A DNA stretch of 64,000 bases from Acidobacterium sp. S8 (GTDB taxonomy: Bacteria; Acidobacteriota; Terriglobia; Terriglobales; Acidobacteriaceae), in assembly GCF_009765985.1 (NCBI RefSeq), contig NZ_LMUM01000028.1, positions 163,467-227,466 of the forward strand, written 5' to 3'. The notes below the pieces were generated by a model. That model was not told where the DNA came from and did not search any database. It saw only the letters and a program-made list of their open reading frames with translations. Made by a program: the position numbers and the translations under genes. Shown here one piece after another: positions 7,255-23,577 of the stretch (its first letter is position 1; each line of letters starts with the position of its first letter).

Positions 7255-8904
7255 ATGAATCGTTGTTGTCTCCGGTTTGCTCTTCTGATCGTTGCAGCCT
7301 TTATAAGTATGTCGATTCCTGTGGCTGTTGCGCAGCAGCCGCATAAAATCGAAATCCGCGGGACTGTCATCGATTCAACCGGCAAGCCCGTGAGCGGCGC
7401 ATCGGTGCATCTTGGACAACAGGGAAGTCCAGACGTCGTGGCGACAACGACCCCGGAAGGCATCTTCGCCTTTGAGGATCTTCAATATGGGACCTATCTC
7501 ATCAAGGCAGAAAAGAACGGCTTAACAAGTCGTGCCGTTACCTGCCCTGCTTCAGCGCGGGCAATCCCGGAACCAATCAATCTGATCCTCGAACCTTCAG
7601 ATGTAGCCCCTGCCAATGCTGGCGCCACATCGCCATCCTCCGCTGAGGCCATGGCATTTGCCGATCAGCCAAACTTTACCGTAGCCGGAGTCACAGATTG
7701 GACGGCCGTCGGCGGCCATGGATCAGACGCCAGCCTGCGAACCAGCGAAGCTCTCACACGTGAGACTCTCACACTCAAACCGGAAGGCTCAACGCCCAAC
7801 CTCTCAGCTTCCTCGGGCAGCGCAACTATAGATGCATCTGAAAGCAGGCTCCGCGCCGCTGTCGCCAGCGCTCCGCAAAGTTTTGAGGCAAACCATCAAC
7901 TCGGAAAGTTCTATTTCCACGCCGGCAAATATCGCGAGTCCATTCCGCCGCTTCAGACCGCATACCAGATTGACCCCGCAAACCACGGCAATGAATACGA
8001 TCTGGCGCTGGCTTATAGGGGAGCTGGCGATTTCGCCCAGGCCCGTGACCACATCCAGAAATTACTGGCGACCGCCGACAGCGCAGACCTGCATCGTCTG
8101 CTGGGTGAACTCGATGAGAAACTGGACGATCCCTTGGCCGCCGTCCATGAAGACGAGCAGGCCGCTCGGTTGGATCCAAGCGAAGAGAATTATTTCGCGT
8201 GGGGCTCGGAGTTATTGCTGCACCGCGCTGTGTGGCAAGCCGCCGCGGTCTTTCGGAATGGCGTTAAAGCATACCCAAAGTCGGCCAGAATGCTCACCGC
8301 GCTGGGTACCGCTCTCTTTGCCGGTGCTCTCTATGATGAAGCGGCCCTTCGCCTCTGCGATGCGTCAGACTTGAATCCGGCAGATCCCGAGCCCTACATC
8401 TTCATGGGCAAGATCGAGATGGCAGCACCTGCGCCACTGCCGTGCGTTGAGCAAAAGCTGGCGCGGTTCGTACAGCAGCAGCCCGAAAACGCCCTCGCCA
8501 ATTACTTTTATGCAATGGCCATCTGGAAACGGCAGGAACAATTATCGTCCCCCGAGGTCATCCAACAGGTAGAAACCCTGCTTACCAAAGCGGTGACGAT
8601 AGACGCGCAATGCAGTGACGCCTACCTTCAACTTGGAATTCTCTACTTCACCCGCCGAGACTTTGATAAAGCAATCAGCTTTTATAAAAAAGCCATCGAA
8701 GCCAACCCTCAGATGGGCGACGCTCATTATCGACTGGGTGTCGCTTACGACCGGACCGGTGAGGCCGCGAAAGCCCAGCAGGAATTCCAACTTCACGACG
8801 AGATAGAGAAGTCACAAGCAGCTGACATCGAACGCCAGCGGCGGGAAGTCAAACAGTTCCTGGTAGTGCTTCAGAAGCAGCCAGCCGACCCATCCGTTCA
8901 CTGA
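7255..8904 (+). CDS. Exported CnaB-like + TPR repeat protein
   Basis: A 549-residue protein. I chose the ATG at 7255 because it gives a clean Sec signal peptide (hydrophobic LRFALLIVAAFISM, cleavage near VAVAQQ); the ATG at 7219 would put 12 polar residues ahead of it. After the signal comes a carboxypeptidase-regulatory/CnaB-like beta domain (IRGTVIDSTGKPVSGASV to about residue 100), a Ser/Ala-rich linker, and TPR repeats from about residue 200 to 530 with typical A-x-x-x-Y-D / P-x-x-x-x-A-x-Y-x-L-G spacing. Its repeat region is clearly paralogous to the protein at 19525: both carry the signature DPSEENxFxWGSELLLHR followed by alignable repeats. It is probably periplasmic or outer-membrane associated. 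Its binding partner is unknown. Confidence 0.85.
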   Translation: MNRCCLRFALLIVAAFISMSIPVAVAQQPHKIEIRGTVIDSTGKPVSGASVHLGQQGSPDVVATTTPEGIFAFEDLQYGTYLIKAEKNGLTSRAVTCPASARAIPEPINLILEPSDVAPANAGATSPSSAEAMAFADQPNFTVAGVTDWTAVGGHGSDASLRTSEALTRETLTLKPEGSTPNLSASSGSATIDASESRLRAAVASAPQSFEANHQLGKFYFHAGKYRESIPPLQTAYQIDPANHGNEYDLALAYRGAGDFAQARDHIQKLLATADSADLHRLLGELDEKLDDPLAAVHEDEQAARLDPSEENYFAWGSELLLHRAVWQAAAVFRNGVKAYPKSARMLTALGTALFAGALYDEAALRLCDASDLNPADPEPYIFMGKIEMAAPAPLPCVEQKLARFVQQQPENALANYFYAMAIWKRQEQLSSPEVIQQVETLLTKAVTIDAQCSDAYLQLGILYFTRRDFDKAISFYKKAIEANPQMGDAHYRLGVAYDRTGEAAKAQQEFQLHDEIEKSQAADIERQRREVKQFLVVLQKQPADPSVH

Positions 8905-8987
8905 AGTTATAGAAAGCTAAACATCACCTGAGAAAACTCGATGTTTTCATTTGGCGATCGTCGAGGCAATTGATACGATGGCCTCCC

Positions 8988-9452
8988 ATGTTCAAATTAT
9001 TCGCCGCGCTACTGATTCCTGTTATGACCATGTACGCAGACAATCTTCCAAGCAAGAAATATCTGAACCTGGCCACCATCAAAGTTATGGTTGCCGCCGC
9101 CGAAGCAAAAGCTCAGGAGCTGAACGTCTCCGTAACCATCTGCGTTGTCGATGACAGCGGCAATTTACTCTTCCTCGAAAAAGGTGAGAGCGCATCGCTT
9201 AACACAATTCAATTCGCCCAGAAGAAGGCTCGGCACGCTGCTTTTTACGGTAGCCCGTCGAAAGATGGAGCAGATGCGGTAAAGAAAGGCAACACCGAAG
9301 TCCTCGCCTTTCCCAACTTCTTCCCAAATCAGGGAGGCCTGCCGGTTCGCATAGATGGCCAGCTTCTCGGCGGAATCGCCGCGAGCGGTGCGAAGTCTGA
9401 GATTGATGAGCAAATCGCTCAGGCGGGTCTCGATGCTTTGCAGAAGAAATAG
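8988..9452 (+). CDS. GlcG/HbpS-family protein, exported
   Basis: A 154-residue protein. The ATG at 8988 gives a short signal peptide (MFKLFAALLIPVMTMYA); an upstream TTG at 8970 is the alternative. The mature part matches the GlcG/HbpS (DUF336) fold: an initial helix (LATIKVMVAAAEAKAQEL), VTICVVDDSGNLLFLEK, a helix beginning NTIQFAQKKARHAAFYGSPSK, then NQGGLPVRIDGQLLGGIAASG and a C-terminal helix EIDEQIAQAGLDAL. HbpS members bind haem or cobalamin-type ligands and some sense redox stress. Which ligand applies here cannot be told. It ends 9 nt before the stop of the convergent FG-GAP protein. Confidence 0.82.
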   Translation: MFKLFAALLIPVMTMYADNLPSKKYLNLATIKVMVAAAEAKAQELNVSVTICVVDDSGNLLFLEKGESASLNTIQFAQKKARHAAFYGSPSKDGADAVKKGNTEVLAFPNFFPNQGGLPVRIDGQLLGGIAASGAKSEIDEQIAQAGLDALQKK

Positions 9453-9461
9453 CAGCGCGCC

Positions 9462-11243
9462 TTACGTCGTGCGCGGCTTAAAGTTCCCTACGATGCCGTC
9501 GCCTTCACGAATCGTCAGTATCTGATTCGCCTTGACCTGCGTGAATCGTTCGACCTTCTGTGTCGTTGGCCATTTCACTTCGATCGCGTCCACGGTCTCA
9601 CCCATTCCAAGACCGAAGTGAAGACGCAGGTCACTTTGTGACATGACACTCGTGCCGCTGTGAACTTCATTCATCTGAGTGTGCTTGCCCGTCGTAACCC
9701 GCACTCGCGCCCCAATGGCCGTGCGATTACATTTGGTTCCTACCAACTTGATCTTGATCCAGTTTTGTTTGTTACCGCCGTCATTGCGAAGCAGCGATGG
9801 TGGATCGTTCATGTTCAAGATCAGAACATCGATGTCCCCATCGTTGTCATAATCGCCAAATGCCGCCCCCCGGCTGGAAAAACGCTCGCTGATACCCGGC
9901 CCCATTCCTGCTGACACATCTTTGAAATGGCCATTGCCGAGATTTTTGTAAACCAGTCTTGGATTCTTGAAAGTCTGGCCGAAATTGTAGCTGTCGATCT
10001 CCGGATATACGTGTCCGTTGATCTGCATGATGTCCGCCCAACCGTCGTTGTCGTAGTCAATAAAGCCGCAGCCCCACGCCACATAGTTTGTGTTGACGCC
10101 AATGCCCGCAGGAAAGGTCACATCGCTGAAAGTTCCATCGCCGTTGTTGTGATACAGGTTGCAGGTGTCATCGGCGAAGTTGGTCTTGAAAATATCAAAC
10201 CAGCCATCGCAATCGTAATCAGCCACTGCTACGCCCATACCTGCCTGCTCATGGCCATTATCGTTGTAGGCGCAGCCAGCCATGATGGCGATATCGGTGA
10301 AAGTGCCATCATGATTATTCTGGAACAGGATGCTCGGCTCGGAATCCACCGCAACATAAATGTCCGGCCATCCATCGTTATCGAAATCGTAAGAGACCGC
10401 TGTAATCGAATATCGTGGGCCAGGTTTCAGGATGCCTGACTTCTCCGAAACATCGGTAAAAGTGCCGTCTCCGTTGTTGTGATAAAGAATATTTGTGTCA
10501 GCCGGAAGCCCACGCGGCCCGCACATCACCGGCACACCTTTCCACTGGCAGAATTTTGTATCGCTCGCGGGAGGAATTGTTTCGGGATCGAGCTTGAGGT
10601 AATTGCAAACGAACAGGTCAAGATGGCCATCGCGATCATAATCAAGAAACGTACATCCTGCGCCCCAGCGAACTTGTTCCTGATATAGGCCGGCATTATG
10701 GGTAACGTCAGTAAAGGTGCCGTCTCCGTTGTTATGGAAAAGCACATTGTGTCCCCAGAAACAGCAGAACAAGTCGTCCCATCCATCGTTGTCGTAATCG
10801 CCGATACAAACGCCAGTCTGCCAGCCAGTACGCCCCAATCCTGATTTTTCCGTGACATCGGTAAAAGTGCCGTCGCGGTTGTTCTTGTACAAATGCGAGG
10901 TAGGCGCTTTTCCTTTCGGCCAATGGGTATCGAGCCGGTCTCCATTCGTGACGTAGATGTCCAGCCATCCGTCGTGGTCGTAATCGAAAAAAGCCAGCCC
11001 GCTGCCCTTAGCCTCAATGATCGAGCGCTTGTGATCGACGCCGCCCCAAACATTGGGAGCACTCAGCCCCGCCTGCTGAGCCACGTTCTCGAATTGAACC
11101 GGAGATGGCGCGGAATTCGATACGGCAGCCTCGACAAGGGCAGAATCTCTCCATTTCCAGAGTGGAGTTGCAAGAGCTTCTGTCAACGTACTGCCAAGCA
11201 CAAAAAGGGATGAGCCGAGAAAGCGCCGCCGCGGAAAATTCAT
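9462..11243 (-). CDS. Exported FG-GAP/VCBS repeat protein with UnbV (ASPIC) domain, CRTAC1-like
   Basis: A 593-residue protein. The N-terminus NFPRRRFLGSSLFVLGS is a twin-arginine type signal. The body is a beta-propeller-like array of FG-GAP/VCBS repeats with seven calcium-type loops: DYDHDGWLD, DYDNDGWDD, DYDRDGHLD, DFDNDGWPD, DYDCDGWFD, DYDNDGWAD, DYDNDGDID. Between them lie NNGDGTFTDV segments. The C-terminal about 100 residues match the UnbV/ASPIC domain (NWIKIKLVGTKCNRTAIGARV ... LRLHFGLG ... VKWPT). The family resembles animal CRTAC1 and is abundant in Acidobacteria and Planctomycetes; its biochemical role is unknown. It lies 88 nt downstream of the related 1278-residue protein on the same strand, so the two are probably one transcript. 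Confidence 0.9.
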   Translation of the reverse strand: MNFPRRRFLGSSLFVLGSTLTEALATPLWKWRDSALVEAAVSNSAPSPVQFENVAQQAGLSAPNVWGGVDHKRSIIEAKGSGLAFFDYDHDGWLDIYVTNGDRLDTHWPKGKAPTSHLYKNNRDGTFTDVTEKSGLGRTGWQTGVCIGDYDNDGWDDLFCCFWGHNVLFHNNGDGTFTDVTHNAGLYQEQVRWGAGCTFLDYDRDGHLDLFVCNYLKLDPETIPPASDTKFCQWKGVPVMCGPRGLPADTNILYHNNGDGTFTDVSEKSGILKPGPRYSITAVSYDFDNDGWPDIYVAVDSEPSILFQNNHDGTFTDIAIMAGCAYNDNGHEQAGMGVAVADYDCDGWFDIFKTNFADDTCNLYHNNGDGTFSDVTFPAGIGVNTNYVAWGCGFIDYDNDGWADIMQINGHVYPEIDSYNFGQTFKNPRLVYKNLGNGHFKDVSAGMGPGISERFSSRGAAFGDYDNDGDIDVLILNMNDPPSLLRNDGGNKQNWIKIKLVGTKCNRTAIGARVRVTTGKHTQMNEVHSGTSVMSQSDLRLHFGLGMGETVDAIEVKWPTTQKVERFTQVKANQILTIREGDGIVGNFKPRTT

Positions 11244-11331: not shown

Positions 11332-14300
11332 TCATTGCAGAGCTCCCAGAGCCTGTCTCGCGCTCGGATTCTGCGGCTGTATGGTCAATAGCCGCTGCAA
11401 CACATCTCTTGCCTTTTCCTTGTTGTTTTGCAACGCATAAAGACGGGCAAGATTGAGATAAGACTGATCGAAATTCGGAACAAGACGAATGCAAGTCTCG
11501 AATTGCTCCTCTGCCTTCGCGTAGTTCTGCTCCCGCACAAAGAGAACACCAAGATTGTTCAACGCTTCTGGATAATCCGGACGCAGATCAATTGCTTTCT
11601 GTAGATACTCCGCCGCATTCTGCATCTGGTTCTGCTGTGCATAGAACATGCCGAGACTGTAATTCACTTCAGGATCGTCAGGTTGCAGTTCAAGAGCGCG
11701 ACCCAAGCACTCTTGCGCCTTCTCGAAAGCTCCCTGCCTCCGGTAGACATTCCCCAGGTTTAGCAGTGCAATCCCGTAGCTCGGTCGCAGACTTAACGAC
11801 TGCTGAAAGTCTCGAATGGCTTCATCCGCGCGGCCTTCCTGTGCCGCCATCATTCCAAGATTGTTCCACGCCTCCGGATAGTTTGGACGCAGCTTCAAAG
11901 TCTGCTCCAGATAGCGGCGCGCCTCCGCAAAATTATTTCTTCTCAGGTTAAGAGTTCCCAGGTTGTAATAGCCCTCAGGATCGTCCGGCTTCGCGGCAAT
12001 CACCTGCTGAAAAGATTCCGCCGCCTGCTCAAGATAACCATGCTGGAACATAGCCACGCCGTAAGTAAAATCGTTGCGCGAAAACGAGCTCTGGTAGAGC
12101 TTCCCACCCAGCGGAATCGCTCTTTGCATCCGCTCCGAAGCCGTAGTCGGCGCAGATTTCACATCCTCAAGCAGGCGTTGCGGATCGATCGGTCCCTGGT
12201 AAACCTTAACGATCATACCCTCTCTATCCAGCAGAAATGACGTTGGAATACCAAGGTCCCTGCGACGATCAAACATGTAGCGGTAGATGATGTTATAAGT
12301 CCCGGCCACATCTTCGGTCGCAAAAAGAACCGGAAAGGAAAATTTTTCCTGTGCAGCGAACGACCTTGCCGTTTGGACATCATTCGCGCCATCGACATTG
12401 ATAGCCAGAATTTCCAAATGGCTGGCGGCGAACGCTGCACTGTGCTGTTGCAGAACTCTCAGTTGGTCGCGACTGAGCGTCGCGGTCGTCGCCCAAAAAT
12501 TGAGAAGCGCAAAATTACCCCGTAATGATCGGAGTTCCCGTACGTCACCGGCAAGATCAGGCAGAGAAAACTCCGGCGCTTTGAGCGGCTCAATAAGCCA
12601 CGTCTCCACTGTGGAGGGTAATGACTCAGGCTTCTGCGCTGGCCCTGCCTGCGCATAAAGAGGGCTCGGCGCCGCGAATGCCTTAGCCTGAAATGTAGCG
12701 GAACCTTCCACAATCTCAATTCGTTGATTCACCGGGAGATCTTCGAATTGCTGCGTAAGCCCGCTGGGCCAGCGAACGGTCGCCCGTATCTTTTCTTCCT
12801 TGCCAACTCCAAAAAAAAGCTCTTTGGAGTGCTGCGCAAGAAAACCAGATCCAGCTTGTAAGTATTTCGTTTGGCGTAAACTTCCCGCCTCTAAGGTAAT
12901 CGCAGATCCAATGGCATCGTTGTTACTTTTCGTCCCTCGCAGACGAAACACAACGGAGTGACCAAGGTCCTTCATCGCGTTGTGCAGAATCCGCAATTGA
13001 GGCGCATTCCGGTTTTTAAGAATGACCTCCAGACGTCCATCATGGTCGAGATCGGCGAGAGTAAAGGACCGGCTGTCTTCGAGAAAATCCAACCCAACCA
13101 CACCTGACACCTCAGAAAACGTACCGTCGCGGTTATTGGCAAACATCACATTTCTCTCATAGCCGTTCCAGGAAGTATCCGACCGAATCAATTCGTTGAG
13201 CGCATTCCATCCATGCTCGTAGGCCAGCGACGGCGTATCGTCGTCAGGCGACTTTGCCACCACCTGCCGCCAGAAAAAACTTGCGAGATCGCGTTGCTCT
13301 AGCGCCGAAATGTATCCATTGGAGACGTAGAGATCCGGATAACCGTCATGATCGAAATCCCAGAAGTCCGACGACCATGACCATCGGCCCATTTCGACTC
13401 CGGTTTGCTGGCCGACGTTTTGAAATTTTCCATCCCCATGGTTTTGATACAGCGCATTGCCTCGCGCATGTCGGCGGTAAAACGAGCGAATATCGTCCGG
13501 AGCCTTTTCGTGAAAGCTCTTCTGCGCAGAAATTCTTTGTCCTGCCGCCGACCACATATTCGCAACGTAGATATCCTGCTTGCCATCGTTATTGAAGTCG
13601 GACCAGCAGGCACTCATGCCCGCGCCCACATCTTCCGCGCCAGCTTCCTTTGAGACGCTGGTGAAAGTCCCGTCTCCGTTGTTGCGATAAAGATTGCCGC
13701 GCCCGAAATCATTGGCCACATAAAGGTCGGGTAGTCCATTGGACTTGTAATCGCCCCACGCGCACGCAAAGCTATAGCGGTTGTTATCCACATTCAGCCC
13801 TGCCGCTTCAGTCCTGTCTACGAAAGTCCCGTCGCCTTCGTTGTGCAGCAGAAAATTTGCCGGACCATTCCGTGCGTCGAAATAGGGCACCGGATAGTGA
13901 TACTGGTCCAGACCAAGGTAGTAGCTATACAGGCAGAAATAAATATCAAGACGTCCATCGCGATCGTAGTCGGCTACAGCCGCGTGCGTAAACGTACCGG
14001 CGGGTGGATGCTGAAACTTGAAAGCATCGCGCTTGATCGAAAAAGTTCCGTCTCCTTGATTCAGGAAGAGCAAGGGCCCATTGCCGCAAACCACAAGAAG
14101 ATCCTGTCGGCCTTTGTTCTCAAAATCTGCGAATAAGGCGCATGCTGTGTTGTCGAGTACGCCAACTCCGGCCTTTTCCGTTACGTCCTCAAAAGTTCCG
14201 TCACCACGATTGCGGTAAAGCCGATTGGGCAATCCTGCCGGCTGGCAAACATACAGATCGTCAAAGCCATCATTGTCGAAGTCGCCCGCCGCCACTCCGT

Positions 14301-15168
14301 TATTGCCGTAAATGTCGATGCCGCATGCGCCGTCCAGCACCGTGCGCCAGTAATCGGTGCCGCGAAGCATCTGGCTCTCGTATGACTCCACTCCTCTCAG
14401 TGCCTGAGCTGTGACATCCACAAAAGCGGCCCCGCGCATGGCACTGACAGTTTCCTCGCTGGCCTCCCACTTCCTCACCCTCCACGCCTCGGAGGCATCG
14501 CGCAGCCACTCGGTGCGCCAAAACCCAACACGTTCCTCGCGCCGCTCATCGCTCAGGCTGGCGACAATGTCATATCGAATATCCAGCCGAACCGTCAGTG
14601 GAGCACTCGCGATTTCTTCGATTCCGGTAATCTCAAATTCCGCTGCTTCCACTCGCGAACCCTGTCCCAGCCATGAGTGAACCTCCTTGAGAAATCGCCC
14701 AGGCCCGGAAGTGGCAGCGGCAGCAAATCGCCGCTTCTTGATATCGATGCCGCCTCCGGCACGCAGCGCGATCTCGCTTACGGGAACGAGCGGAGAAGCT
14801 TCGATTGAGGGAGCCAGCAACTTTGCGAGAACGGAAAGATCGCGGACGCCGGATGCCTTGAGAGTCTCGCTCCATTGTTTGAGGAGCGACTGAATTTCAG
14901 CGGCATATTTCTCCGTGATGTATTCATCCAGGCCCGGAGTGACAAGGCGAAGGACATCTTCCAGAGGAGATCTTGCCGGATAGTGCGGTGTCAGGCGAAC
15001 TTCGGAAAAAGGGAAGGTGTGATTCTGCTCTGCTAAGAATTCTGATGGCCCGAAAAGCAATGACGATCCGTGAAAGGGTGCCGCACGCAAAAGCAGCGGC
15101 GCCAAACCCATGCCTTTTAGAAGTGTCCGTCGAGACAGGGAATGATTTTCGTTCTGGTGACGCGACAT
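11332..15168 (-). CDS. Tat-exported FG-GAP / UnbV / redoxin-like / TPR fusion protein
   Basis: A 1278-residue mosaic. Residues 1-45: Tat signal (SRRTLLKGMGLAPLLLRA). About 60-270: a mainly helical N-terminal region that I do not recognise. About 290-710: FG-GAP/VCBS repeats with loops such as DFDNDGFDD, DYDRDGRLD, DFNNDGKQD, DFDHDGYPD and DLDHDGRLE. About 730-820: UnbV/ASPIC domain (VVFRLRGTKSNNDAIGSAI ... LFFGVGKEE ... VRWPSG). About 860-1000: a TlpA/AhpC-type redoxin fold (FSLPDLAGDVRELRSLRG, LLNFWATTATLSRDQLRVL, IPTSFLLDREGMIVKVYQG). About 1030-1278: seven TPRs (PEGYYNLG, PEAWNNLG, PEALNNLG and others). The redoxin active site has no cysteine where TlpA-like proteins carry WCxxC, so it cannot do thiol-disulfide chemistry. 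It is probably a periplasmic scaffold or binding protein. Confidence 0.88.
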   Translation of the reverse strand: MSRHQNENHSLSRRTLLKGMGLAPLLLRAAPFHGSSLLFGPSEFLAEQNHTFPFSEVRLTPHYPARSPLEDVLRLVTPGLDEYITEKYAAEIQSLLKQWSETLKASGVRDLSVLAKLLAPSIEASPLVPVSEIALRAGGGIDIKKRRFAAAATSGPGRFLKEVHSWLGQGSRVEAAEFEITGIEEIASAPLTVRLDIRYDIVASLSDERREERVGFWRTEWLRDASEAWRVRKWEASEETVSAMRGAAFVDVTAQALRGVESYESQMLRGTDYWRTVLDGACGIDIYGNNGVAAGDFDNDGFDDLYVCQPAGLPNRLYRNRGDGTFEDVTEKAGVGVLDNTACALFADFENKGRQDLLVVCGNGPLLFLNQGDGTFSIKRDAFKFQHPPAGTFTHAAVADYDRDGRLDIYFCLYSYYLGLDQYHYPVPYFDARNGPANFLLHNEGDGTFVDRTEAAGLNVDNNRYSFACAWGDYKSNGLPDLYVANDFGRGNLYRNNGDGTFTSVSKEAGAEDVGAGMSACWSDFNNDGKQDIYVANMWSAAGQRISAQKSFHEKAPDDIRSFYRRHARGNALYQNHGDGKFQNVGQQTGVEMGRWSWSSDFWDFDHDGYPDLYVSNGYISALEQRDLASFFWRQVVAKSPDDDTPSLAYEHGWNALNELIRSDTSWNGYERNVMFANNRDGTFSEVSGVVGLDFLEDSRSFTLADLDHDGRLEVILKNRNAPQLRILHNAMKDLGHSVVFRLRGTKSNNDAIGSAITLEAGSLRQTKYLQAGSGFLAQHSKELFFGVGKEEKIRATVRWPSGLTQQFEDLPVNQRIEIVEGSATFQAKAFAAPSPLYAQAGPAQKPESLPSTVETWLIEPLKAPEFSLPDLAGDVRELRSLRGNFALLNFWATTATLSRDQLRVLQQHSAAFAASHLEILAINVDGANDVQTARSFAAQEKFSFPVLFATEDVAGTYNIIYRYMFDRRRDLGIPTSFLLDREGMIVKVYQGPIDPQRLLEDVKSAPTTASERMQRAIPLGGKLYQSSFSRNDFTYGVAMFQHGYLEQAAESFQQVIAAKPDDPEGYYNLGTLNLRRNNFAEARRYLEQTLKLRPNYPEAWNNLGMMAAQEGRADEAIRDFQQSLSLRPSYGIALLNLGNVYRRQGAFEKAQECLGRALELQPDDPEVNYSLGMFYAQQNQMQNAAEYLQKAIDLRPDYPEALNNLGVLFVREQNYAKAEEQFETCIRLVPNFDQSYLNLARLYALQNNKEKARDVLQRLLTIQPQNPSARQALGALQ

Positions 15169-15517
15169 CCTCTACAGGTCCTCGTGTGGGTGCTCAGCGT
15201 TTGCATGCTAGCACTAAGGTGGGTCCGATCCAAAATCGTCAACAGGCTGCGAGTTTCAGTCCCAGAGGTCATCTCAGAAAAATTTTCGTGAAATCACACT
15301 TTGCATCGCCAACGAAACAGTTCTCCACCCAGCGGTTTAGAGCATTGTCATAATTTCAGTTGACAATGAACAATTCACGATGCTACCTTCCTCGCCGCAA
15401 TGACAAAGTGACTTAAAGCACAAAGATACGTATATGTAACCGGTTACTCAAAGCGAGCAGATGTACCGATTCGTCACTGGGTTAAACCGATGAATGTCAT
15501 TACAGGGAGGCTGTTCC
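15169..15517 (+). promoter_or_regulatory. Divergent control region for the receptor and the FG-GAP operon
   Basis: About 350 nt between the leftward FG-GAP fusion gene and the rightward TonB-dependent receptor. It contains a candidate sigma-70 promoter for the receptor: TTGACA at 15360-15365 and, 18 nt on, an extended -10 TGCTACCTT at 15381-15389. Downstream of this is a 12-bp palindrome (separate entry). I see no small gene here. Confidence 0.55.
15438..15449 (+). promoter_or_regulatory. LacI-family type operator palindrome
   Basis: GTAACCGGTTAC is a perfect 12-bp palindrome with a central CG, set in an A/T-rich flank. This is the classic form of LacI/GalR-family operators. It lies about 50 nt downstream of the candidate -10 and 68 nt before the receptor start, a position suited to road-block repression. 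No LacI-family gene is in the window, so the regulator would be encoded elsewhere. Confidence 0.6.
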
Positions 15518-18500
15518 ATGGGTCGTAAATCGAAGAGCTCACGCTCGTTTAGATTTCTTAGCTACATAACCCTCACATGCTTATTCTTTCTTCTGGCACA
15601 GAGCCAGTCCTTATTCGGTCAGGTAGACGAAGGCGCCATTTCCGGAACGGTTACAGACGCCAGCGGTGCCGTCGTTCCCAGTGCCAAGGTCACGCTCCTC
15701 AATACTGATGTCGGTCTGTCTCTTGAGACCACGACGAACAGCGATGGCCAATACATCTTTTCACCGGTCAGAATCGGGCATTATTCCTTGACTGTAACTG
15801 CCGGTGGCTTCTCAACTACTACCCAGCAGAATTTACAAGTGAACGTGGCCCAACGACTGCAGGTCCCCGTCCAATTGAAGTTGGGCGCCGCGACTGAAAC
15901 CGTCGAGGTCACTACCGCGCCACCGCAGTTGCAGACGAGTGAAGCTTCAGTCGGTCAGGTAGTCAACGAACGCACAGTGAACAGCCTGCCTTTGAATGGT
16001 CGTAACTTCACATTCCTGGCGCAGCTCGGCGCCGGTGTGAACACGCCGCAAGCCGACACCCGAGGCAATGCAGCCTCCGGTGCCTTCACCGCCAACGGTC
16101 TGCGCCCAGCACAAAACAACTATCTACTCGATGGCATCGACAACAACTCCAACGCCGTCGACTTCCTGAACGGAACAAACTTCGTCATCCTTCCGCCGTT
16201 AGACGCGATCCAGGAGTTCAAGGTCCAGACAGCGGACTTCAGTGCTGAACTCGGTCGTTCCGCAGGCGCAGTGCTGAACGCAACCATCAAGTCGGGAACA
16301 AATAGCATCCACGGTGCAGCCTGGGAGTTCTTCCGGAACGACGTGCTCGATGCTGCGGACTGGTTTGAAAACAACGCCGGAATCAAAAAGGGTGAATTGC
16401 GCTGGAATCAGTTCGGCGCTTCCATCGGAGGCCCGATCGTCAAGAACAAAATCTTCTTCTTCGGCGACTATCAAGGGTTCCGTCGCGTGCAGGGAACTGT
16501 ACTGCCCGGTAGCGTACCAACGTTGACGGAGCGCAACAGCGGTTTCACCGATCTCTCCGACCTCATCACTGGTCAGAATGGTGCGCCGCGAACTGACGCC
16601 GTTGGCCGATCCATCCCCTACGGCACCGTGCTGGATCCGGCGACAACACGGTCAGTCGGCCCCCATGCCATCGATCCCGTCTCAGGTTTTCAAAATACGA
16701 GCGGCGATACCGTCTTTGTTCGTGATCCGTTCGGCACATGCCCCGCAGGTACCCAGACCTTTACGCTTGGTGGCTGCGGCCTGAACCAAATCCCGGCCAA
16801 CCGCCTGGACGCGAACGCCATCAAGCTCATGAATCTCTATCCGACACCGACCAACAGCTCGTTCAGTACAAACTTTACTTCGAGCCCCAGTCTGTTCGAA
16901 CACAGCAACGCCTATGACATTCGCGGAGATGTGAACCCCTCAGAAAAAGACCAGATATTCGTCCGCTTCAGCTACGTGGATGACCCGCAATTTATTCCCG
17001 GCATTTTTGGCGGCATCGCCGACGGTGGTGGCTTCCAGCAGGGTCTGCAGGGCGCAACATCGGAACAGGCCGTCGTGGGATACACCCATGTCTTCTCGCC
17101 GAGCACGATCAACGTAGCGCACGTAGGCTTCAACCACCTTCACACCACTCGATTCGGCCCCGAGGGCAGCACACAGGGTATTCCCGCTCAATTCGGAATC
17201 AATGGCGTCCCGCAGAGCTCTGACAACGGTGGATTGCCGGCAATTGTCATCCAGGGACTGCAGGAACTTGGCAGCAATGACTTCCTCCCCTCCGATGAAG
17301 TCAGCCAAACCCTCCAAATCACCGATGACTTTACCAAGATCTACGGAAACCAGAGCTTCAAAGTAGGTATCGAATACCAGGACGTACACTTCAACACGCT
17401 GCAGCCTGCATACTCCCGTGGCGAATTTGACTTCAACGGCAACTACGCAGGTGTCCCGGGCCAGGGCGGCGATCAGACAGGCCGCGCGCAGCTTCTCATT
17501 ACTCCAACCGCTGCAACTGTTGCAAACGGTGTGGATTACGTAGGCGGCGCGAATGAAGTGCATGCCTCAAACATCAGCAAGACTTACGATACGAGGAATT
17601 ATTTCGCCGCGTATTTCCAGGACGACTGGAAAGTCTCTCCGAATCTGACCCTCAACCTTGGCATGCGTTGGGATTATTTCAGCCCGATCTCCGAATCAAA
17701 CGGAGCACAGGCTAACTTCGTTCAAAACGGTCCTCCAAACGGTGTTCCCACGTTCCTTCTCCCAGCTTCGGGCAAAGCCGACAGGTCTCTATCCTCGACG
17801 GCAAACAATCCGGCTCTCAATGGTCAGGGCTTCCTCGATCTGCTTGCCAAGGACGGAATTGCGCTCGGACTCACCGACAAATACGGAAAATCGCTGGTTC
17901 AGACGCAACATAGTAATTTTGCGCCACGCTTCGGTTTTGCGTATCAAGTAGATCCGAAACTTGTAGTGCGCGGCGGTGTCGGCCTCTTCTACAACGCATT
18001 TGAAAACCAGGGCTACGGACCTAACATTGGAGAGAATTATCCATTCGTCTACAACTTTGACTTCAAAGGGACAACGGATTCAGCGCCCTTTAGCTCCGGA
18101 CCTAACCCTTATGGCACATGCGGAACGGCAGGTCCGGGTGGCAGTGCGACCATCGGTTCAGGTCTCAGCTGCGCGGCCTTTACTCCATTGGCAGTCAACG
18201 CTGCAGGCCTGAGTCTCCAGGGACTGCAGTTTAATTACAAGACACCCCGCACCTTCAGCACCAACCTGAGTGTCCAATACGCCCTGACGAATACCTTGTC
18301 CGCGCAGGTAGCATACGTGCTTACTGACGGCAGCGCACTTCAGGCAGGCATCGGCAACAACGAGGTATCGCAGCTTCTTCCGGCAAACACCAGCATCACG
18401 CCCTACGTGCCGTTCCATGATTTTGGAACGGGCGGCAGCTATCAGCGGACCATCGGAAGCAGCATCTACAACGGCCTGCAGACCAAACTGGAACAGCAGT

Positions 18501-19294
18501 TCTCGAACGGTTTGAATTACCTCGTCGCCTATACCTATTCAAAAACGCTTTCGGACGCAGGCGACTTGTTAAACGGCGGCAGCACAAACGGGTATCGTGC
18601 ACCCTGGGTACCCGGACTTGGTCCTCGTTTTGACTGGGGACTGGCCGACTTCGATGTCCGTAACGTCTTCCATCTGAGCGGCGGGTACGAACTGCCGTTC
18701 GGCAAGGGTAAGGCGTATATGGCCAACTCCGGCAGACTGGCAAATGCGATCCTCGGTGGATGGAGTGCCAACACGATTGTTACCATCCAGGGCGGCCAAC
18801 CCCTTTCGCTCAGTTGCCCGACCGGAACCACCTCTGGAACCAGTTGCAATGATGTGAAGGTCCCCGGTCAAAGTCCGAAGCTTGGGCTGCACACCGATTC
18901 GAATGGAAAGCTTAGCTGGTTTGGGAATCCGAATGCCTTCCAGCAGCCGTGCCCGCTGGGAAATGCTCCCACCGCCGGATGCTTCCCCTTAACCGGTTCT
19001 GCCATTCTCGGCGCTGGTCCTTCGACGACTTACGGACCGCCGTTCCGTCAATTCACTCTCTCAACCTTTAAGGCTTTCCCGATTACTGAGCGGTTCACCA
19101 TGCAGTTCCGGGCAGAGTTCTTCAACATTCTCAACCATCCTAACTTCAATGCTCCTAACTTCGGCGGCAACGGTGTCACCTCCGTCGGAAACTCGGCCAA
19201 CTTCACCAGTTCGACCTTCGGTGAAATTGGATCCACTCGCGATGCCCCATTCGATCCGAGACAGATTCAATTCGCCTTGAAGCTGTTGTTCTGA
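15518..19294 (+). CDS. TonB-dependent outer-membrane receptor, Oar/CnaB type
   Basis: A 1258-residue outer-membrane receptor. I chose the ATG at 15518 because a strong ribosome binding site (AGGGAGG, 15504-15510) lies 7 nt ahead; the upstream ATG at 15494 lacks one. Seen: a signal peptide ending near LFGQ, a carboxypeptidase-regulatory/CnaB domain (GAISGTVTDASGAVVPSAKV), a linker with VNSLPLNGRNFTFLAQ, a plug domain (FTANGLRPAQNNYLLDGIDN), a long beta-barrel with many aromatic strands, and a C-terminal strand ending in ...ALKLLF, the terminal-Phe beta signal. The architecture is the Oar-like receptor family that is greatly expanded in Acidobacteria and is thought to import oligosaccharides or other large nutrients with TonB/ExbBD energy. 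The ligand is unknown. A LacI-type operator precedes it and a terminator hairpin follows it. Confidence 0.93.
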   Translation: MGRKSKSSRSFRFLSYITLTCLFFLLAQSQSLFGQVDEGAISGTVTDASGAVVPSAKVTLLNTDVGLSLETTTNSDGQYIFSPVRIGHYSLTVTAGGFSTTTQQNLQVNVAQRLQVPVQLKLGAATETVEVTTAPPQLQTSEASVGQVVNERTVNSLPLNGRNFTFLAQLGAGVNTPQADTRGNAASGAFTANGLRPAQNNYLLDGIDNNSNAVDFLNGTNFVILPPLDAIQEFKVQTADFSAELGRSAGAVLNATIKSGTNSIHGAAWEFFRNDVLDAADWFENNAGIKKGELRWNQFGASIGGPIVKNKIFFFGDYQGFRRVQGTVLPGSVPTLTERNSGFTDLSDLITGQNGAPRTDAVGRSIPYGTVLDPATTRSVGPHAIDPVSGFQNTSGDTVFVRDPFGTCPAGTQTFTLGGCGLNQIPANRLDANAIKLMNLYPTPTNSSFSTNFTSSPSLFEHSNAYDIRGDVNPSEKDQIFVRFSYVDDPQFIPGIFGGIADGGGFQQGLQGATSEQAVVGYTHVFSPSTINVAHVGFNHLHTTRFGPEGSTQGIPAQFGINGVPQSSDNGGLPAIVIQGLQELGSNDFLPSDEVSQTLQITDDFTKIYGNQSFKVGIEYQDVHFNTLQPAYSRGEFDFNGNYAGVPGQGGDQTGRAQLLITPTAATVANGVDYVGGANEVHASNISKTYDTRNYFAAYFQDDWKVSPNLTLNLGMRWDYFSPISESNGAQANFVQNGPPNGVPTFLLPASGKADRSLSSTANNPALNGQGFLDLLAKDGIALGLTDKYGKSLVQTQHSNFAPRFGFAYQVDPKLVVRGGVGLFYNAFENQGYGPNIGENYPFVYNFDFKGTTDSAPFSSGPNPYGTCGTAGPGGSATIGSGLSCAAFTPLAVNAAGLSLQGLQFNYKTPRTFSTNLSVQYALTNTLSAQVAYVLTDGSALQAGIGNNEVSQLLPANTSITPYVPFHDFGTGGSYQRTIGSSIYNGLQTKLEQQFSNGLNYLVAYTYSKTLSDAGDLLNGGSTNGYRAPWVPGLGPRFDWGLADFDVRNVFHLSGGYELPFGKGKAYMANSGRLANAILGGWSANTIVTIQGGQPLSLSCPTGTTSGTSCNDVKVPGQSPKLGLHTDSNGKLSWFGNPNAFQQPCPLGNAPTAGCFPLTGSAILGAGPSTTYGPPFRQFTLSTFKAFPITERFTMQFRAEFFNILNHPNFNAPNFGGNGVTSVGNSANFTSSTFGEIGSTRDAPFDPRQIQFALKLLF

Positions 19295-19524: not shown

Positions 19525-20943
19525 GTGAGCAAGAGGCCCTGGTTTCGGCTGTTGGTTTTTATTTCTCTGGTGTGCGCAGCGTTTGCGAAAGCGCAGAACA
19601 ATCAGAGCGAGAACCAGAAGCTGAATCTTCAGTTTCAGTCGGCAGTCGCCCAATACCATGCAGGAAACCTTGCGGAAGCAACAAGCCAACTGGAAGACCT
19701 TTTACCCCGCGCCCCAAAGAGCTTCGAGGTTCACGAGCTTTTAGGATTGGTTTACGCCGCGCAGTCGCAGGATGCAAAAGCCCTCGAACATCTCGAGACC
19801 GCCGTTCGATTGAAACCCGATTCCGCTCCCGCCAGAACAAATCTCGCCGCTACCCTCACCCGTCTTGGAAAGCTTGACTCAGCCGGAGAGCAATTTCAGA
19901 AAGCCCTGTCGCTGGAGCCGCAGAATTTTGACGCCAATCACAACCTCGGCGAGTTCTACATCCAGTCCAAAAAAATTAAGGAAGCAAGTCCTTATCTCGA
20001 ACGCGCCCAGCAAATCAATCCTGCTTCCTACGGCAATGGTTATGATCTGGCGCTCGCTTACTACCTCACAGGCAGGCTCGGCGAAGCAGAGAAGCTTGCT
20101 CAAAGCCTGCTACAGCAAAAGAACGTCGGTGAACTTCATAACCTCTTAGGCCAGATTTACGAGAAAGAAGGGAAATTCGTAGCCGCCGGCAACGAGTATG
20201 AAACTGCCGCTCATATGGATCCCAGTGAAGAAAACTTGTTTGACTGGGGCAGTGAGCTGCTTCTTCACCGCACCTATGAACCTGCGATCGAAGTCTTCAA
20301 GCAAGCTACGCTGCGTTATCCGGATTCACCCCGCCTAAAGATCGGCCTCGGAATGGCCCTTTATTCGCGGGGGCTTTATGACGAGTCGATCACTGCACTC
20401 CTCGCCGCATCCGACCTCAACCCCTCCGATCCTCGCTGCTATCTATTTCTTTCCAAGGCTTACGAGAGTTCTCCGAATCACGCAGAAGACGTCATCCAGA
20501 GATTCCGGCGCTATGCCGAACTTCAGCCCGGCAACGCGCTGGCTCAGTATTACTACGCGATGAGTTTATGGAAAGGAAAGCGATCCGAAAACTCGGGACT
20601 GGACCTTCACGAAGTAGAATCATTACTGCAAAAGGTAATCGCTCTGGATGAGAAGCTTCCCGAAGCCCACGTGCAGCTAGGCAATCTATATGCCGACCAA
20701 CACGAGTATGAGAAATCAATCCCCGAGTACACGCGCGCGTTGGAACTGGATCCGAATCTCCCGGATGCCCACTATCGTTTAGGAACAGACTATGTGCACC
20801 TCGGACAAAAGGACCGCGCACACAAAGAGTTCGATATGTACCAGCAGCTTCGGGCGCAACATATGGCCGAAGTCGACAAAGAGCGGGCAGAGGTGCAGCA
20901 ATTCGTGTATGCAGCGAAGTCAGCACCCTCCACCAAGCCTTGA
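19525..20943 (+). CDS. Exported TPR repeat protein, paralogue of the 7255 gene
   Basis: A 472-residue protein starting at GTG 19525, with AAGGTG ahead as ribosome binding site. A Sec signal peptide (WFRLLVFISLVCAAFAKAQ) is followed directly by TPR units, starting LNLQFQSAVAQYHAGNLAEA and running almost to the C-terminus. The last part is charged and helical (MAEVDKERAEVQQFV). It aligns along most of its length with the CnaB+TPR protein at 7255-8904 and shares the DPSEENxFxWGSELLLHR signature, but lacks the CnaB domain. It is probably a periplasmic protein-protein interaction scaffold. It follows the receptor in the same direction, so a joint role is plausible, although the hairpin at 19306 may split the transcripts. 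Confidence 0.87.
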   Translation: MSKRPWFRLLVFISLVCAAFAKAQNNQSENQKLNLQFQSAVAQYHAGNLAEATSQLEDLLPRAPKSFEVHELLGLVYAAQSQDAKALEHLETAVRLKPDSAPARTNLAATLTRLGKLDSAGEQFQKALSLEPQNFDANHNLGEFYIQSKKIKEASPYLERAQQINPASYGNGYDLALAYYLTGRLGEAEKLAQSLLQQKNVGELHNLLGQIYEKEGKFVAAGNEYETAAHMDPSEENLFDWGSELLLHRTYEPAIEVFKQATLRYPDSPRLKIGLGMALYSRGLYDESITALLAASDLNPSDPRCYLFLSKAYESSPNHAEDVIQRFRRYAELQPGNALAQYYYAMSLWKGKRSENSGLDLHEVESLLQKVIALDEKLPEAHVQLGNLYADQHEYEKSIPEYTRALELDPNLPDAHYRLGTDYVHLGQKDRAHKEFDMYQQLRAQHMAEVDKERAEVQQFVYAAKSAPSTKP

Positions 20944-20995: not shown

Positions 20996-22204
20996 ATGCT
21001 GCCAAGCAATCTCAAAGCCGAACAATTTTCCGGATATCCTCCCGAAGCGAAGAAACTGGTCGTGGCCCACCTGGCAGCGCTGCAGCAGCTCCCGCTTATC
21101 TTTGTGCCAAGCTTGCTTCGGGAAGTCATCGACTATGACTACAAGTTCCCGGCGGAACGCGCCGCCGTTGAGAGGGAACTGGCCAATCTAAGCTCTCTCT
21201 CCTCGGCTCAGATCAAAGACTGGTTTCAGGCATTCTCGCAATTCTCGCTGTCCCCTCAGCTCCAGCAATTCGACTGGGTCGATCAGCCTGCGCAGTTTGT
21301 AGAACAACTGTCGGCCTATCTCTGGAGCACGCATCAGATTGACGCCTTTCGCAAAGCAGCCGTGGACTACGCGAATCGCTTGCCGCAAGTACCTTCATCC
21401 GAACCGCTTCCCCTACGCAGACTCGGCATTGCAGTCATCGGACAAGGCGTTACCTCCTACGACGCGCCACTTTTCAGCAAGCTGCGCGAGCAGGGCACCC
21501 ATTTCACGCAAGTCAAGCCGGAGAAAGGATTGGAGCTGCTGCTGACTGCGGTCGCAGCTCGCGCGCAGGCGCATCCTGTCCGCTATGGCCATTGGTACGT
21601 CGATGGAGGACAGGAAGCCGATCACAGCCCGTTGCTCACGTGCGTCTCCTATCAGGCGCTGGAGCCCGTGCGCGCTGCCTTATTGAAAAACATGCAGGGC
21701 GAAATCGTACGGCCCGGTAATGGTCCCGAGGAGCTGCGTTCACATCTAGCCCGGCTATCGCCGGCGGATCTCGGCATGAACAATGCCGGAGATGCCGTGC
21801 TCGACCGCTTTCAAATCAAGATCCTCACAGAAGGCTCCGGAACCCAGATATTCAGCACCACCTTCGCTCAGTGGACGGCACGCGAAGCTCTGCGGCGAGC
21901 ACAGCCACTCACATTGATGGTTCGCTTCGCCCCGCGCCAACGGCAAAGGCCGATGAACGAGCTAATGACTGGCAGCAGCGCCAATCCCGAACTCGATTTC
22001 ACTGGCTCGCTGATCGACGCGGACATGGGTGCCTATTATCAATGGATAGACCAGCAGCGGCTCCCCGGCTCTGAGCAATCTTCGTTCCTCGCGTGGTTCG
22101 AAGGCCACAATCAGGCGCTTGTGGTTGCTCCATCGCTGCCTCGTGGCACAGAATCAAGTTCATCAATAGGTATGGGAGAGTTGCTTTCGCTCACAATTGG
22201 ATAA
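20996..22204 (+). CDS. Hypothetical protein, 402 residues, not recognised
   Basis: I do not recognise a family. It has no signal peptide or membrane helix and should be cytosolic. The first about 130 residues are helical (PEAKKLVVAHLAALQQLPLI, VEQLSAYLWSTHQIDAFRKA). The middle is alpha/beta-like (RRLGIAVIGQGVTSYD, PVRYGHWYVDGGQEAD). The C-terminal part contains FSTTFAQWTAREALRRAQ, LMVRFAPRQRQRPMNEL and SLIDADMGAYYQWIDQQRL, ending with a Ser-rich tail. Codon use and frame are clean with no competing frame, so it is very likely a real gene. It sits 53 nt after the TPR gene and 209 nt before a Tat-exported alkaline-phosphatase-fold protein. Confidence 0.8.
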   Translation: MLPSNLKAEQFSGYPPEAKKLVVAHLAALQQLPLIFVPSLLREVIDYDYKFPAERAAVERELANLSSLSSAQIKDWFQAFSQFSLSPQLQQFDWVDQPAQFVEQLSAYLWSTHQIDAFRKAAVDYANRLPQVPSSEPLPLRRLGIAVIGQGVTSYDAPLFSKLREQGTHFTQVKPEKGLELLLTAVAARAQAHPVRYGHWYVDGGQEADHSPLLTCVSYQALEPVRAALLKNMQGEIVRPGNGPEELRSHLARLSPADLGMNNAGDAVLDRFQIKILTEGSGTQIFSTTFAQWTAREALRRAQPLTLMVRFAPRQRQRPMNELMTGSSANPELDFTGSLIDADMGAYYQWIDQQRLPGSEQSSFLAWFEGHNQALVVAPSLPRGTESSSSIGMGELLSLTIG

Positions 22205-22307
22205 AAATACACTCAGTGGACCCCCACCGAGAGAAGGAATGATCGCAATGCAGTTGAATGTTAAGTCAATTTAGTGGTTGCTGTAACCTGCAAGCTTGTA
22301 AGGACAT

Positions 22308-22375
22308 CGGTAGAAGCACCCGGCCTTTAGGCCGGTGAATAAGGTCGCAACGCAGAAAGGGCCTTTAGGCACGGA
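22308..22375 (+). repeat. REP-like palindromic repeat, copy 2
   Basis: Holds GGTAGAAGCACC followed by a CCGGCC-TTTA-GGCCGG hairpin and then a related GGGCCTTTAGGCACGG unit. It corresponds to copy 1 at 19383-19447, with about 20 nt of different DNA between the two hairpins. It lies in the leader of the gene at 22414. Confidence 0.6.
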
Positions 22376-22413
22376 CTTATAGCAGCAGCGAAGGTGCTCC
22401 AGGTGGACCTAAA

Positions 22414-23577
22414 TTGAAGTTCAGAAGTGATCTCAATCCGCGTGAACAAGCGCAGGCGCTGGCCTGGAGTCGACGTGATTTTCTGCGATCCAGCATTGGG
22501 GTTGCCGCCGCATCGTCGATGTTCAGCTTCGCACCGCTGTCCGCCTTGGCTCAGCTGAAAAATCAAAAAGTGGTCGTTGTAACTTTTGGCGGAGGAGCGC
22601 GCGACGAGGAGACCTTCGCCCCGGCAGGCCAGGAAAATATCCCCAACCTGCTCAAAACTCTCTTCCCGCAATCCACGCTTTACACGCAGGTCGTCAATCG
22701 CGGAATCCTCGGGCACTACGTTGCCACCGCAAGCCTGGCAACAGGCGTGTACGAGACATTCAATAATTTTGCAACCGTGCCGCCGCAGAATCCGACAATC
22801 TTCGAATACTTCCGCAAAGACCTCAAGCGGCCGCTGAATGATGCCTGGGTAGTCGCGCCCAGCAATGGCTTCAATCGCATTGGCGAAAGCAGTAATCGAT
22901 CTTATGGTGCGGGCCTTGGCGCCGGGGTCATCTTACCGAAACACCTGCTGCAGGCTTCATTACCCACAGGTAGTTCTACCGATTACTCCCACCTCCTGCG
23001 CGACAACTATGAGACGCCTTTCTACACTCCTGAACTCGCCGGCAACGAGTTGCAGATGCAGCATCTTGAACAAATTCTCAAGCTGTCAGTGAATGATTTC
23101 GTCCATCACGCGCTCAGCCTCGCCAGCCCCGACGAGCTTTCCGTATATATCGCGAAACAATTGATGAGGCAGATGGCGCCCAGTCTTCTGTGGATCACGC
23201 TGCACGATATCGACATCGCCCATTCCGGAGCTTATTCGCTCTATATTGACGGCATCCAGCGCTCCGACCGCCTCTGCGCCGAGATATGGAAAACAATCCA
23301 GGCTGAGCCGGAATATAAAGACCGCACAACCATGTTCATCCTCCCCGACTTCGGACGCGACTCCGATATGGATGCGAGTGGCAATGGTTTCCAACATCAT
23401 CGCACCGGCGATGCGCTCTCACGCACCACATGGATGATGGTTCTCGGCCCCGACACTCGGCAGGGAATTGTCATCGATCGTCCCATCGAATCGGTCGACC
23501 TGGTGCCGACCATTGGCGCAAGGCTCGGTTTCGATGCGCGCTTCAGCCAGGGCAAACCGCTTACCGAGATCGCATAG
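22414..23577 (+). CDS. Tat-exported alkaline-phosphatase-superfamily protein
   Basis: A 387-residue protein with a TTG start at 22414, preceded by AGGTGG at 7 nt spacing. Residues 1-45 hold a twin-arginine signal (SRRDFLRSSIGVAAASS, cleavage near ALAQ). The mature protein has features of the alkaline phosphatase / sulfatase / DUF1501 fold: an opening strand KVVVVTFGGGARDEETF, the NIPNLLKTLFPQSTLY helix-strand unit, a late FILPDFGRDSDMD strand followed by HHRTGD, and SVDLVPTIGARLGF near the end. These positions resemble the metal-binding D..H of the superfamily, but the usual nucleophile context is not obvious, so catalytic activity is uncertain. It is probably cotranscribed with the preceding unknown gene. 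Confidence 0.75.
   Translation: MKFRSDLNPREQAQALAWSRRDFLRSSIGVAAASSMFSFAPLSALAQLKNQKVVVVTFGGGARDEETFAPAGQENIPNLLKTLFPQSTLYTQVVNRGILGHYVATASLATGVYETFNNFATVPPQNPTIFEYFRKDLKRPLNDAWVVAPSNGFNRIGESSNRSYGAGLGAGVILPKHLLQASLPTGSSTDYSHLLRDNYETPFYTPELAGNELQMQHLEQILKLSVNDFVHHALSLASPDELSVYIAKQLMRQMAPSLLWITLHDIDIAHSGAYSLYIDGIQRSDRLCAEIWKTIQAEPEYKDRTTMFILPDFGRDSDMDASGNGFQHHRTGDALSRTTWMMVLGPDTRQGIVIDRPIESVDLVPTIGARLGFDARFSQGKPLTEIA

Follow-up and report, generated by a model that had tools for sequence, protein, structure and literature searches.

Acidobacteria, abundant as decomposers in soil, carry dozens of TonB receptors per genome, and SusD is absent in the genome checked. In other bacteria, Oar-type receptors, which combine CarboxypepD_reg and OMP_b-brl_4 domains, are tied to protease or large-protein traffic. 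Our literature search found no assigned role for the bacterial CRTAC1/UnbV family and no paper linking UnbV with TonB receptors, SusD or glycosidases. Comparable gene sets lie on annotated plasmids: GH172-receptor-CRTAC1-TPR-LacI-fucP on pACPOL3, LacI-alginate lyase-GH88-TPR-receptor-CRTAC1-GH30-GH28 on pACIX902 and alpha-glucosidase-receptor-TPR-CRTAC1-CRTAC1 on pACIX901, together with LacI-arabinofuranosidase-SusC-SusD-UnbV on a plasmid of Hymenobacter (Bacteroidota). Since the last of these carries SusC-SusD-UnbV, the TPR protein occupies the place of SusD, and SusD folds themselves include TPR units (PMC9599597).

The window analysed here is a stretch of 64,000 nucleotides from the 5.4 Mb genome of Acidobacterium sp. 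S8. The initial annotation described eight consecutive genes in it as one envelope module, and all eight reading frames, with their domains, were recovered at the positions it gave (Pfam). Relatives that have the ALP-UNK pair but not the remaining genes led us to reject a single eight-gene unit, and the HbpS gene is optional; the locus is a receptor/TPR/UnbV part plus a separable pair of phosphatase-fold proteins. The first gene, TPR_A (7219..8904, forward strand), encodes an exported protein with a CarboxypepD_reg domain (PF13620) and TPR families (Pfam), and is present at the corresponding position in many relatives; it is, as had been proposed, a paralogue of TPR_B at the other flank (40% identity over 376 aa, E 5e-95). 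The small exported HbpS/GlcG-like protein (8970..9452, forward; PF03928, E 1.9e-30) is indeed encoded next but is peripheral to the set, its gene adjoining TPR_A in few relatives only (L043, L047, L051, L052).

Two FG-GAP/UnbV proteins had been recognised, and both UnbV1 (9462..11243, reverse strand; CRTAC1-type) and UnbV2 (11332..15168, reverse) match PF13517 and PF07593, with FG-GAP repeats followed by a UnbV_ASPIC domain, both above the curated cut-off. Both also begin with visible twin-arginine signals (signal peptides, Sec or Tat, and lipoboxes were judged by eye throughout). UnbV2 is not a plain FG-GAP/UnbV protein but a larger fusion (1278 aa) in which a redoxin domain of the AhpC/TSA type and a TPR array are joined to FG-GAP/UnbV (Pfam). 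The TlpA/ResA-type CxxC redox motif is absent from its middle domain, which has FWATTATLSRDQ instead, and CxxC is kept in none of the 54 matched relatives of UnbV2. Transcribed in the opposite direction, the Oar-like TonB-dependent receptor (15494..19294, forward) has CarboxypepD_reg and OMP_b-brl_4 domains in Pfam (PF13620, E 7e-21; PF25183, the family to which it belongs, E 5e-206) and is one of about 65 receptors of its family in this genome; no SusC-type model was found among its NCBIfam matches up to E 0.1. The gene next to it encodes no SusD-family lipoprotein; the neighbour is TPR_B (19525..20943, forward), an exported TPR protein (Pfam) in the position of SusD in Sus loci. No SusD-family match is among the matches listed for TPR_B, which counts against a Sus-like reading.

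The genes are neighbours in related genomes as well, so that the initial annotation withstands the test it had set itself on this point. Across 40 genomes of the family and about 77 named loci, Terriglobia relatives keep the order UnbV1, UnbV2 / TonB receptor, TPR, phosphatase-fold protein, UNK at about 55-87% protein identity, with UnbV1 orthologues in syntenic position 78-87% identical. This sample is biased towards loci with the ALP-UNK pair because it was picked through UNK, and counts over named loci (64, 51 and 71 loci) are minimum values, since the wrong strand was at times taken by a simple ORF picker. So counted, UnbV2 is the receptor's divergent neighbour in at least 47 of 51 named loci, and TPR_B precedes UNK by no more than 3 kb in at least 57 of 64. 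One relative genome (G158) has many receptors of the window receptor's type and no UnbV protein, and UnbV is therefore not needed for this receptor type as such.

UNK (20996..22204, forward; 402 aa) had been listed as an unrecognised cytosolic protein and has neither a signal peptide nor a Pfam or NCBIfam match, but its structural model (pLDDT 88.7) comprises an N-terminal helical domain and, at residues 136-402, an alkaline-phosphatase-like fold (VIA Z 13.1, rmsd 3.9, 216 aligned; all 50 matches listed belong to the alkaline phosphatase superfamily), which we call degenerate because the Foldseek TM is only ~0.3. ALP (22414..23577, forward) had been taken for a Tat-exported alkaline-phosphatase-fold protein; it does carry a Tat signal, while the fold is invisible to Pfam, where only a sub-threshold TAT_signal match was obtained, and is assigned from the model (pLDDT 77; VIA Z 29.0, rmsd 2.8, 295 aligned, to PafA). 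In the PDB, no sequence relatives of UNK were found, and ALP gave only sub-threshold sulfatase and phosphonate-hydrolase matches. Profile comparison of UNK with ALP gave only weak similarity (E 0.007 with alignments A1/A2, nothing with A3/A4), so that their kinship rests on fold.

UNK is an almost obligate partner of an ALP-type Tat-signal phosphatase-fold protein: no more than 100 nt separate UNK from an ALP gene upstream of it in 39 of 40 family loci and in 65 or more of 71 named loci, the pair persists in loci missing the receptor part, and UNK occurs in five or more families of the class Terriglobia. In relatives the phosphatase-fold gene comes first and UNK nearly abuts it; in the window UNK is followed by a 209-nt spacer (22205..22413), which by comparison with relatives marks the point where the partner gene was replaced by insertion, and then by ALP. 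The tree puts ALP with G017/G088 (support 100/99), and the placement of UNK in its tree differs. The original ALP partner has been replaced in the window by a foreign (xenologous) copy, and the gene order has been swapped. A REP-like repeat at the junction was considered and rejected, its motif occurring only once in the window.

The tight adjacency, independence and wide spread of the pair would suit an alternative in which it is the functional core, acting on a surface polymer that bears sulfate or phosphate groups, or in phosphate handling, with the receptor and UnbV proteins as accessories. We regard this as unlikely: in hand alignment to NPP motifs (alignments A2/A4), Gly appears to stand at the nucleophile and first-Asp positions of ALP and Phe in place of a metal His, and ALP seems to lack the usual nucleophile along with several metal ligands; no recurring phosphate-related gene was seen nearby; and in closer relatives the conservation of UnbV1, UnbV2 and the receptor equals that of the pair. 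UNK is without the catalytic segment.

The receptor and UnbV genes diverge from a control region with a LacI-type operator, as had been noted, although its length is 325 nt (15169..15493) and not 350 nt. The palindrome, TGTAACCGGTTACT (15435..15448), lies in the promoter region and has a central CG, which fits a LacI-type operator. In a footprint across 84 loci it was found at the same place with at most three mismatches in 52 of the 84 gaps, against 6 of 420 shuffles, and in about 15 relatives a LacI gene lies inside the corresponding gap. The window locus has no LacI gene, and its palindrome is matched exactly nowhere else in the genome and shows no excess of near matches, all of which counts against a Sus-like reading. 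Two further candidates were rejected: a cognate LacI in this genome, where no close orthologue of the relatives' cis LacI was found (best 39-40% identity), and a genome-wide regulon, for TGTAACCGGTTACW with up to two mismatches occurs at 18 places against 39 for the reversed control, and there is therefore no excess of near matches.

Glycosidase genes recur around the module and its parallels. GH2 lies within 200 nt downstream in at least 15 of 64 named loci and within 3 kb in at least 18 of 64, and GH42, GH35/DUF5597 and galactokinase genes are near the module in a few relatives; the absence of GH2 downstream in most relatives, and of any glycosidase from the window module, counts against a Sus-like reading. 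A GH2 orthologue (72%) is encoded in this genome at another receptor/UnbV/TPR/LacI locus (C19), and five of the eight receptor-near UnbV clusters carry GH2, GH36 (two copies), GH97+GH27, GH95 or GH92. The receptor-TPR-UnbV set is not unique to the window: the genome holds several loci of this kind. Together with the annotated Granulicella and Acidisarcina plasmids, such sets adjoin GH2, GH27, GH36, GH92, GH95, GH97, GH28 and others, and sugar transporters also stand beside the module or its parallel sets. With about 65 receptors in the genome, some would adjoin a glycosidase by chance.

Were these glycosidase neighbours incidental, the locus might capture and process a large protein or peptide ligand, as the traffic tied to Oar-type receptors elsewhere would allow, and one UnbV/receptor locus of this genome (L006) has an S15 peptidase and no glycosidase. 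This explanation appears quite improbable, as no recurring peptidase was seen at the module among 80 named loci, in contrast to GH2 and LacI, and the parallel loci on the annotated plasmids are concerned with carbohydrates. A chance run of exported proteins, neighbours by history only in a genome with many receptor, UnbV (17 matches) and TPR genes, with an HbpS gene that comes and goes and a swapped ALP gene, is already disfavoured and has very little probability, since order and orientation are held over many genera though flanking genes vary, the operator is conserved, and UnbV-receptor adjacency is above chance (8 of 12 UnbV clusters of this genome within 5 kb of a receptor, P ~5e-5).

The locus is probably one of several Sus-like glycan-capture/import loci of Acidobacteriaceae, which would bring sugars of plant type through the outer membrane. 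Sus-like logic without SusD had been suggested for all eight genes as one unit, which they are not; the logic itself is supported by the glycosidases, LacI and sugar transporters, by SusC-SusD-UnbV in Hymenobacter, and by the absence of SusD_RagB from the whole genome in a profile search (Bacteroides control positive). In such a locus, a LacI-family repressor, to which the palindrome and the relatives' LacI gene point, would hold the divergent promoters until a sugar signal frees them. The OMP_b-brl_4 receptor, judging by its family, would import an oligosaccharide with TonB energy, and the adjoining TPR protein, by its position, may help it as SusD helps SusC. The Tat-signal UnbV proteins could bind glycan or act as a scaffold via calcium-loop FG-GAP propellers, and a secreted glycosidase, perhaps the GH2 of many relatives that is encoded in another such locus here, would cleave the product; our best guess for the substrate is a beta-galactoside. 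The ALP-UNK pair would be a linked accessory: ALP carries a Tat signal, and UNK, having none of its own, may be co-exported in a folded complex with ALP or function in the cytoplasm.

A wider reading is possible but doubtful: that across Terriglobia a TPR protein took over SusD's job, making receptor-TPR-UnbV a SusD-free glycan importer with UnbV as its surface glycan-binding part, joined in the window module by a new two-protein phosphatase-fold complex co-exported via Tat. If true, the importer reading would give the large bacterial CRTAC1/UnbV family its first function. The recurring set beside diverse glycosidases offers a marker for acidobacterial sugar-uptake loci and a testable role for orphan UnbV/CRTAC1 proteins. 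Beyond the initial annotation, our analysis adds the UnbV2 fusion, the fold of UNK, its partnership with ALP (two previously unnamed phosphatase-fold proteins whose genes travel together), and the ALP replacement with its order swap.

Compared with Bacteroidota Sus-like loci, the locus shares a CarboxypepD_reg receptor and an adjoining TPR-containing partner and, in some relatives and in parallel loci, glycosidases and a presumed sugar-responsive regulator, and UnbV follows SusC-SusD on the Hymenobacter plasmid; it differs in that the SusD family is missing from the genome, the receptor is of the OMP_b-brl_4 type with no SusC-type NCBIfam match up to E 0.1, and the TPR proteins are plain repeats, seemingly Sec-exported without a lipobox (by eye). 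UnbV1 and UnbV2 resemble other CRTAC1/ASPIC-UnbV FG-GAP proteins in PF13517 and PF07593, whereas the cysteine-less redoxin domain and TPR array are additions of UnbV2. ALP and UNK 136-402 share their predicted fold with the alkaline phosphatase superfamily (PafA, NPP, sulfatases) but have no detectable sequence family, with apparently altered nucleophile and metal positions in ALP (hand alignment) and no catalytic segment in UNK. The plasmid loci of Granulicella tundricola and Acidisarcina polymorpha have the same receptor, TPR and CRTAC1 families, with glycosidases and LacI, but their glycosidases are others and they carry no ALP-UNK pair, UNK having no match in the plasmid collection.

All eight genes that the initial annotation had assigned to an envelope module in this 5.44-Mb acidobacterial genome (G000, contig C23) are real open reading frames, and their stated domains were confirmed. 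Two divergent operons flank a 325-nt gap (15169-15493): the leftward operon encodes two FG-GAP/UnbV (CRTAC1-type) proteins, UnbV2 (11332-15168) and UnbV1 (9462-11243), and the rightward operon encodes the receptor (CarboxypepD_reg and OMP_b-brl_4 domains; 15494-19294), TPR_B (19525-20943), the 402-aa protein UNK (20996-22204) and the alkaline-phosphatase-fold protein ALP (22414-23577). TPR_A (7219-8904) and HbpS (8970-9452) are transcribed towards UnbV1 from the left side. The flanking TPR proteins, which had been called paralogues, share 40% identity. Twin-arginine signals were read by eye at the start of UnbV1, UnbV2 and ALP. Beyond FG-GAP/UnbV, UnbV2 carries an AhpC/TSA-type redoxin domain followed by a TPR array; with its CxxC lost (kept in 0 of 54 matched relatives), this domain probably does not act as a thiol oxidoreductase. 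An ordinary fluoride-resistance unit borders the module, consisting of a CrcB fluoride channel gene (23585-24058) with a fluoride riboswitch (RF01734, 37 bits; 24039-24114, minus strand) at its start. The GC skew flips from negative to positive at about 46000-50000, which could stem from a rearrangement or mark an origin or terminus; the scan of neighbouring genes identified none for replication.

Relatives share a common plan, as seen in 40 neighbourhoods sampled from the family and in about 77 named loci; named loci with the same module occur in Acidobacteriaceae and other Terriglobia, including Granulicella, Edaphobacter, Silvibacterium, Terriglobus and Acidicapsa. Searches with UNK detected it in 77 of 200 family genomes and in 116 of 299 class genomes, representing at least five families. 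In closer relatives, TPR_A, UnbV1, UnbV2, receptor, TPR_B, ALP and UNK retain order and orientation, with identities of 78-87% for UnbV1, about 55-82% for UnbV2 and the receptor, and about 54-75% for TPR_B. Where the flank of a named locus was long enough, the receptor was upstream in 54/54, divergent UnbV2 was present in 47/51, TPR_B in 57/64 and ALP within 100 nt in 65/71, all of these counts being lower bounds; HbpS was found in few loci only. Two neighbourhoods (L051 and L052) differ from L042-L050 in having no UnbV2 upstream of the receptor, its place being taken by TPR_A-HbpS with UnbV1 more distant, showing the modularity of the left half. One full acidobacterial module (L156, JANXWZ010000160.1) lies in a record titled as a Rhodanobacteraceae MAG, which is probably mislabelled or a mixed bin.

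The divergent gap holds the palindrome TGTAACCGGTTACT (15435-15448), and closely similar sequences recur in the equivalent gap of relatives: 52 of 84 gaps contained one with no more than three mismatches to TGTAACCGGTTACA, compared with 6 of 420 dinucleotide shuffles. Because these matches recur, the LacI-type operator proposed earlier is well supported as a conserved element. A LacI-family gene lies inside the corresponding gap in about 15 relatives, and most such loci have a variant palindrome (e.g. GTTAAGCGGTTAAG). No close orthologue of this LacI was found in the G000 genome; the window locus has lost, or never had, an in-gap LacI gene.

UNK gave no family hit. Its confident model (pLDDT 88.7) has a helical N-terminus of 130 residues, and a match to the alkaline phosphatase superfamily covers residues 136-402 (VIA Z 13.1 to PafA, with 50/50 listed rows from this superfamily); Foldseek agreed weakly (TM about 0.3). 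ALP (VIA Z 29.0 to PafA) is the clearer member. Aligned by hand with NPP motifs, ALP seems to have Gly at the first metal Asp and at the nucleophile, and Phe for one metal His. A profile alignment (E 0.007) matched the beginning of the UNK fold to the first strand of ALP, the following conserved segment being missing from UNK; the other alignment pair did not give this match. The ALP-UNK pair is a separable unit, since the two genes adjoin in 39/40 family loci and still do so in more distant relatives, where the receptor part is sometimes absent. A Tat signal is present on ALP and none on UNK, and the genes are almost inseparable; a natural idea is that the proteins may be exported jointly as a candidate folded complex. 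A second, diverged pair (ALP about 35%, UNK about 25% identity) adjoins the first in seven named loci (L088, L092, L093, L109, L121, L124 and L150), and the pair thus duplicates as a unit.

In trees, the window UNK groups among Granulicella/Edaphobacter-type relatives, and the window ALP with those of genomes G017 and G088 (100/99 support), sharing 86% identity with the G017 protein versus about 66% with that of its neighbours. In the window, UNK precedes ALP and a 209-nt spacer separates them, compared with nearly abutting ALP-UNK in relatives, and no second ALP was found in the G000 genome. These data are most simply read as loss of the native ALP and its replacement by a foreign copy downstream of UNK. 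UNK thereby regained a partner at the same site, which suggests that one is needed.

The gene following UNK is a Tat-signal GH2 in many relatives (15/64 within 200 nt, 18/64 within 3 kb), and GH42, GH35/DUF5597 or galactokinase genes are nearby in a few. The G000 orthologue of this GH2 (72%; C19:89215-91533) sits in a separate locus (L002) with LacI, two receptors, UnbV and TPR genes. This genome encodes about 65 receptors of the same family as the module receptor and has 17 UnbV hits in 12 clusters; for 8 of the clusters a receptor is at most 5 kb away (P about 5e-5, against an expected rate of 0.14 per cluster). TPR genes usually accompany these eight clusters, and glycosidases (GH2, two GH36, GH97+GH27, GH95, GH92) are beside five of them; a ninth cluster has a receptor 11 kb away, with a GH36-like enzyme and RhaT alongside. 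This genome-wide pattern points the same way as the sugar context of the module. A second kind of UnbV locus, with ~600-aa beside ~1180-aa UnbV proteins, was seen at L007 2496-7846 (G000:C18), where no receptor is nearby, and apparently also in two other genomes (G070:C1:3107432-3119513 and G117:C1:4851933-4863939). In one relative (G158, 6.2 Mb) an ALP-UNK pair is present and OMP_b-brl_4 receptors number at least 49, with about 140 candidates, and no UnbV protein was found in its whole genome.

We favour the module as a LacI-controlled, Sus-like locus for glycan capture and import, in which LacI would control the locus, the receptor would work with the TPR protein as one import unit, and the UnbV proteins may bind or present glycan. 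The best guess for the substrate is a beta-galactoside, because of the GH2, GH42, GH35 and galactokinase neighbours. Sus-like loci, and CRTAC1 proteins as a family, are already known; our literature search found no paper linking UnbV proteins to TonB receptors, SusD or glycosidases. The main value of the locus is that what UnbV proteins do, and what TPR proteins do where they replace SusD, can be tested directly in culturable acidobacteria.

The Sus-like logic without SusD proposed in the initial annotation is largely supported by the absence of SusD_RagB from the G000 genome and by the linked glycosidases, both of which are observed, as are the domains, the synteny and the operator conservation; substrate, import, the TPR and UnbV roles and UNK export are what we infer. 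The position held by SusD in Sus-like loci is occupied by a TPR protein in the acidobacterial ones, and TPR units also underlie the SusD fold itself (PMC9599597). The pattern recurs on independently annotated plasmids: Acidisarcina pACPOL3 has the order GH172, receptor, CRTAC1, TPR, LacI, fucP; Granulicella pACIX902 has LacI, alginate lyase, GH88, TPR, receptor, CRTAC1, GH30, GH28; and Granulicella pACIX901 has alpha-glucosidase, receptor, TPR, CRTAC1, CRTAC1. Gemmatirosa has an UnbV protein encoded ahead of a TonB receptor, and a plasmid of Hymenobacter (Bacteroidota) carries LacI, arabinofuranosidase, SusC, SusD and an UnbV protein in that order.
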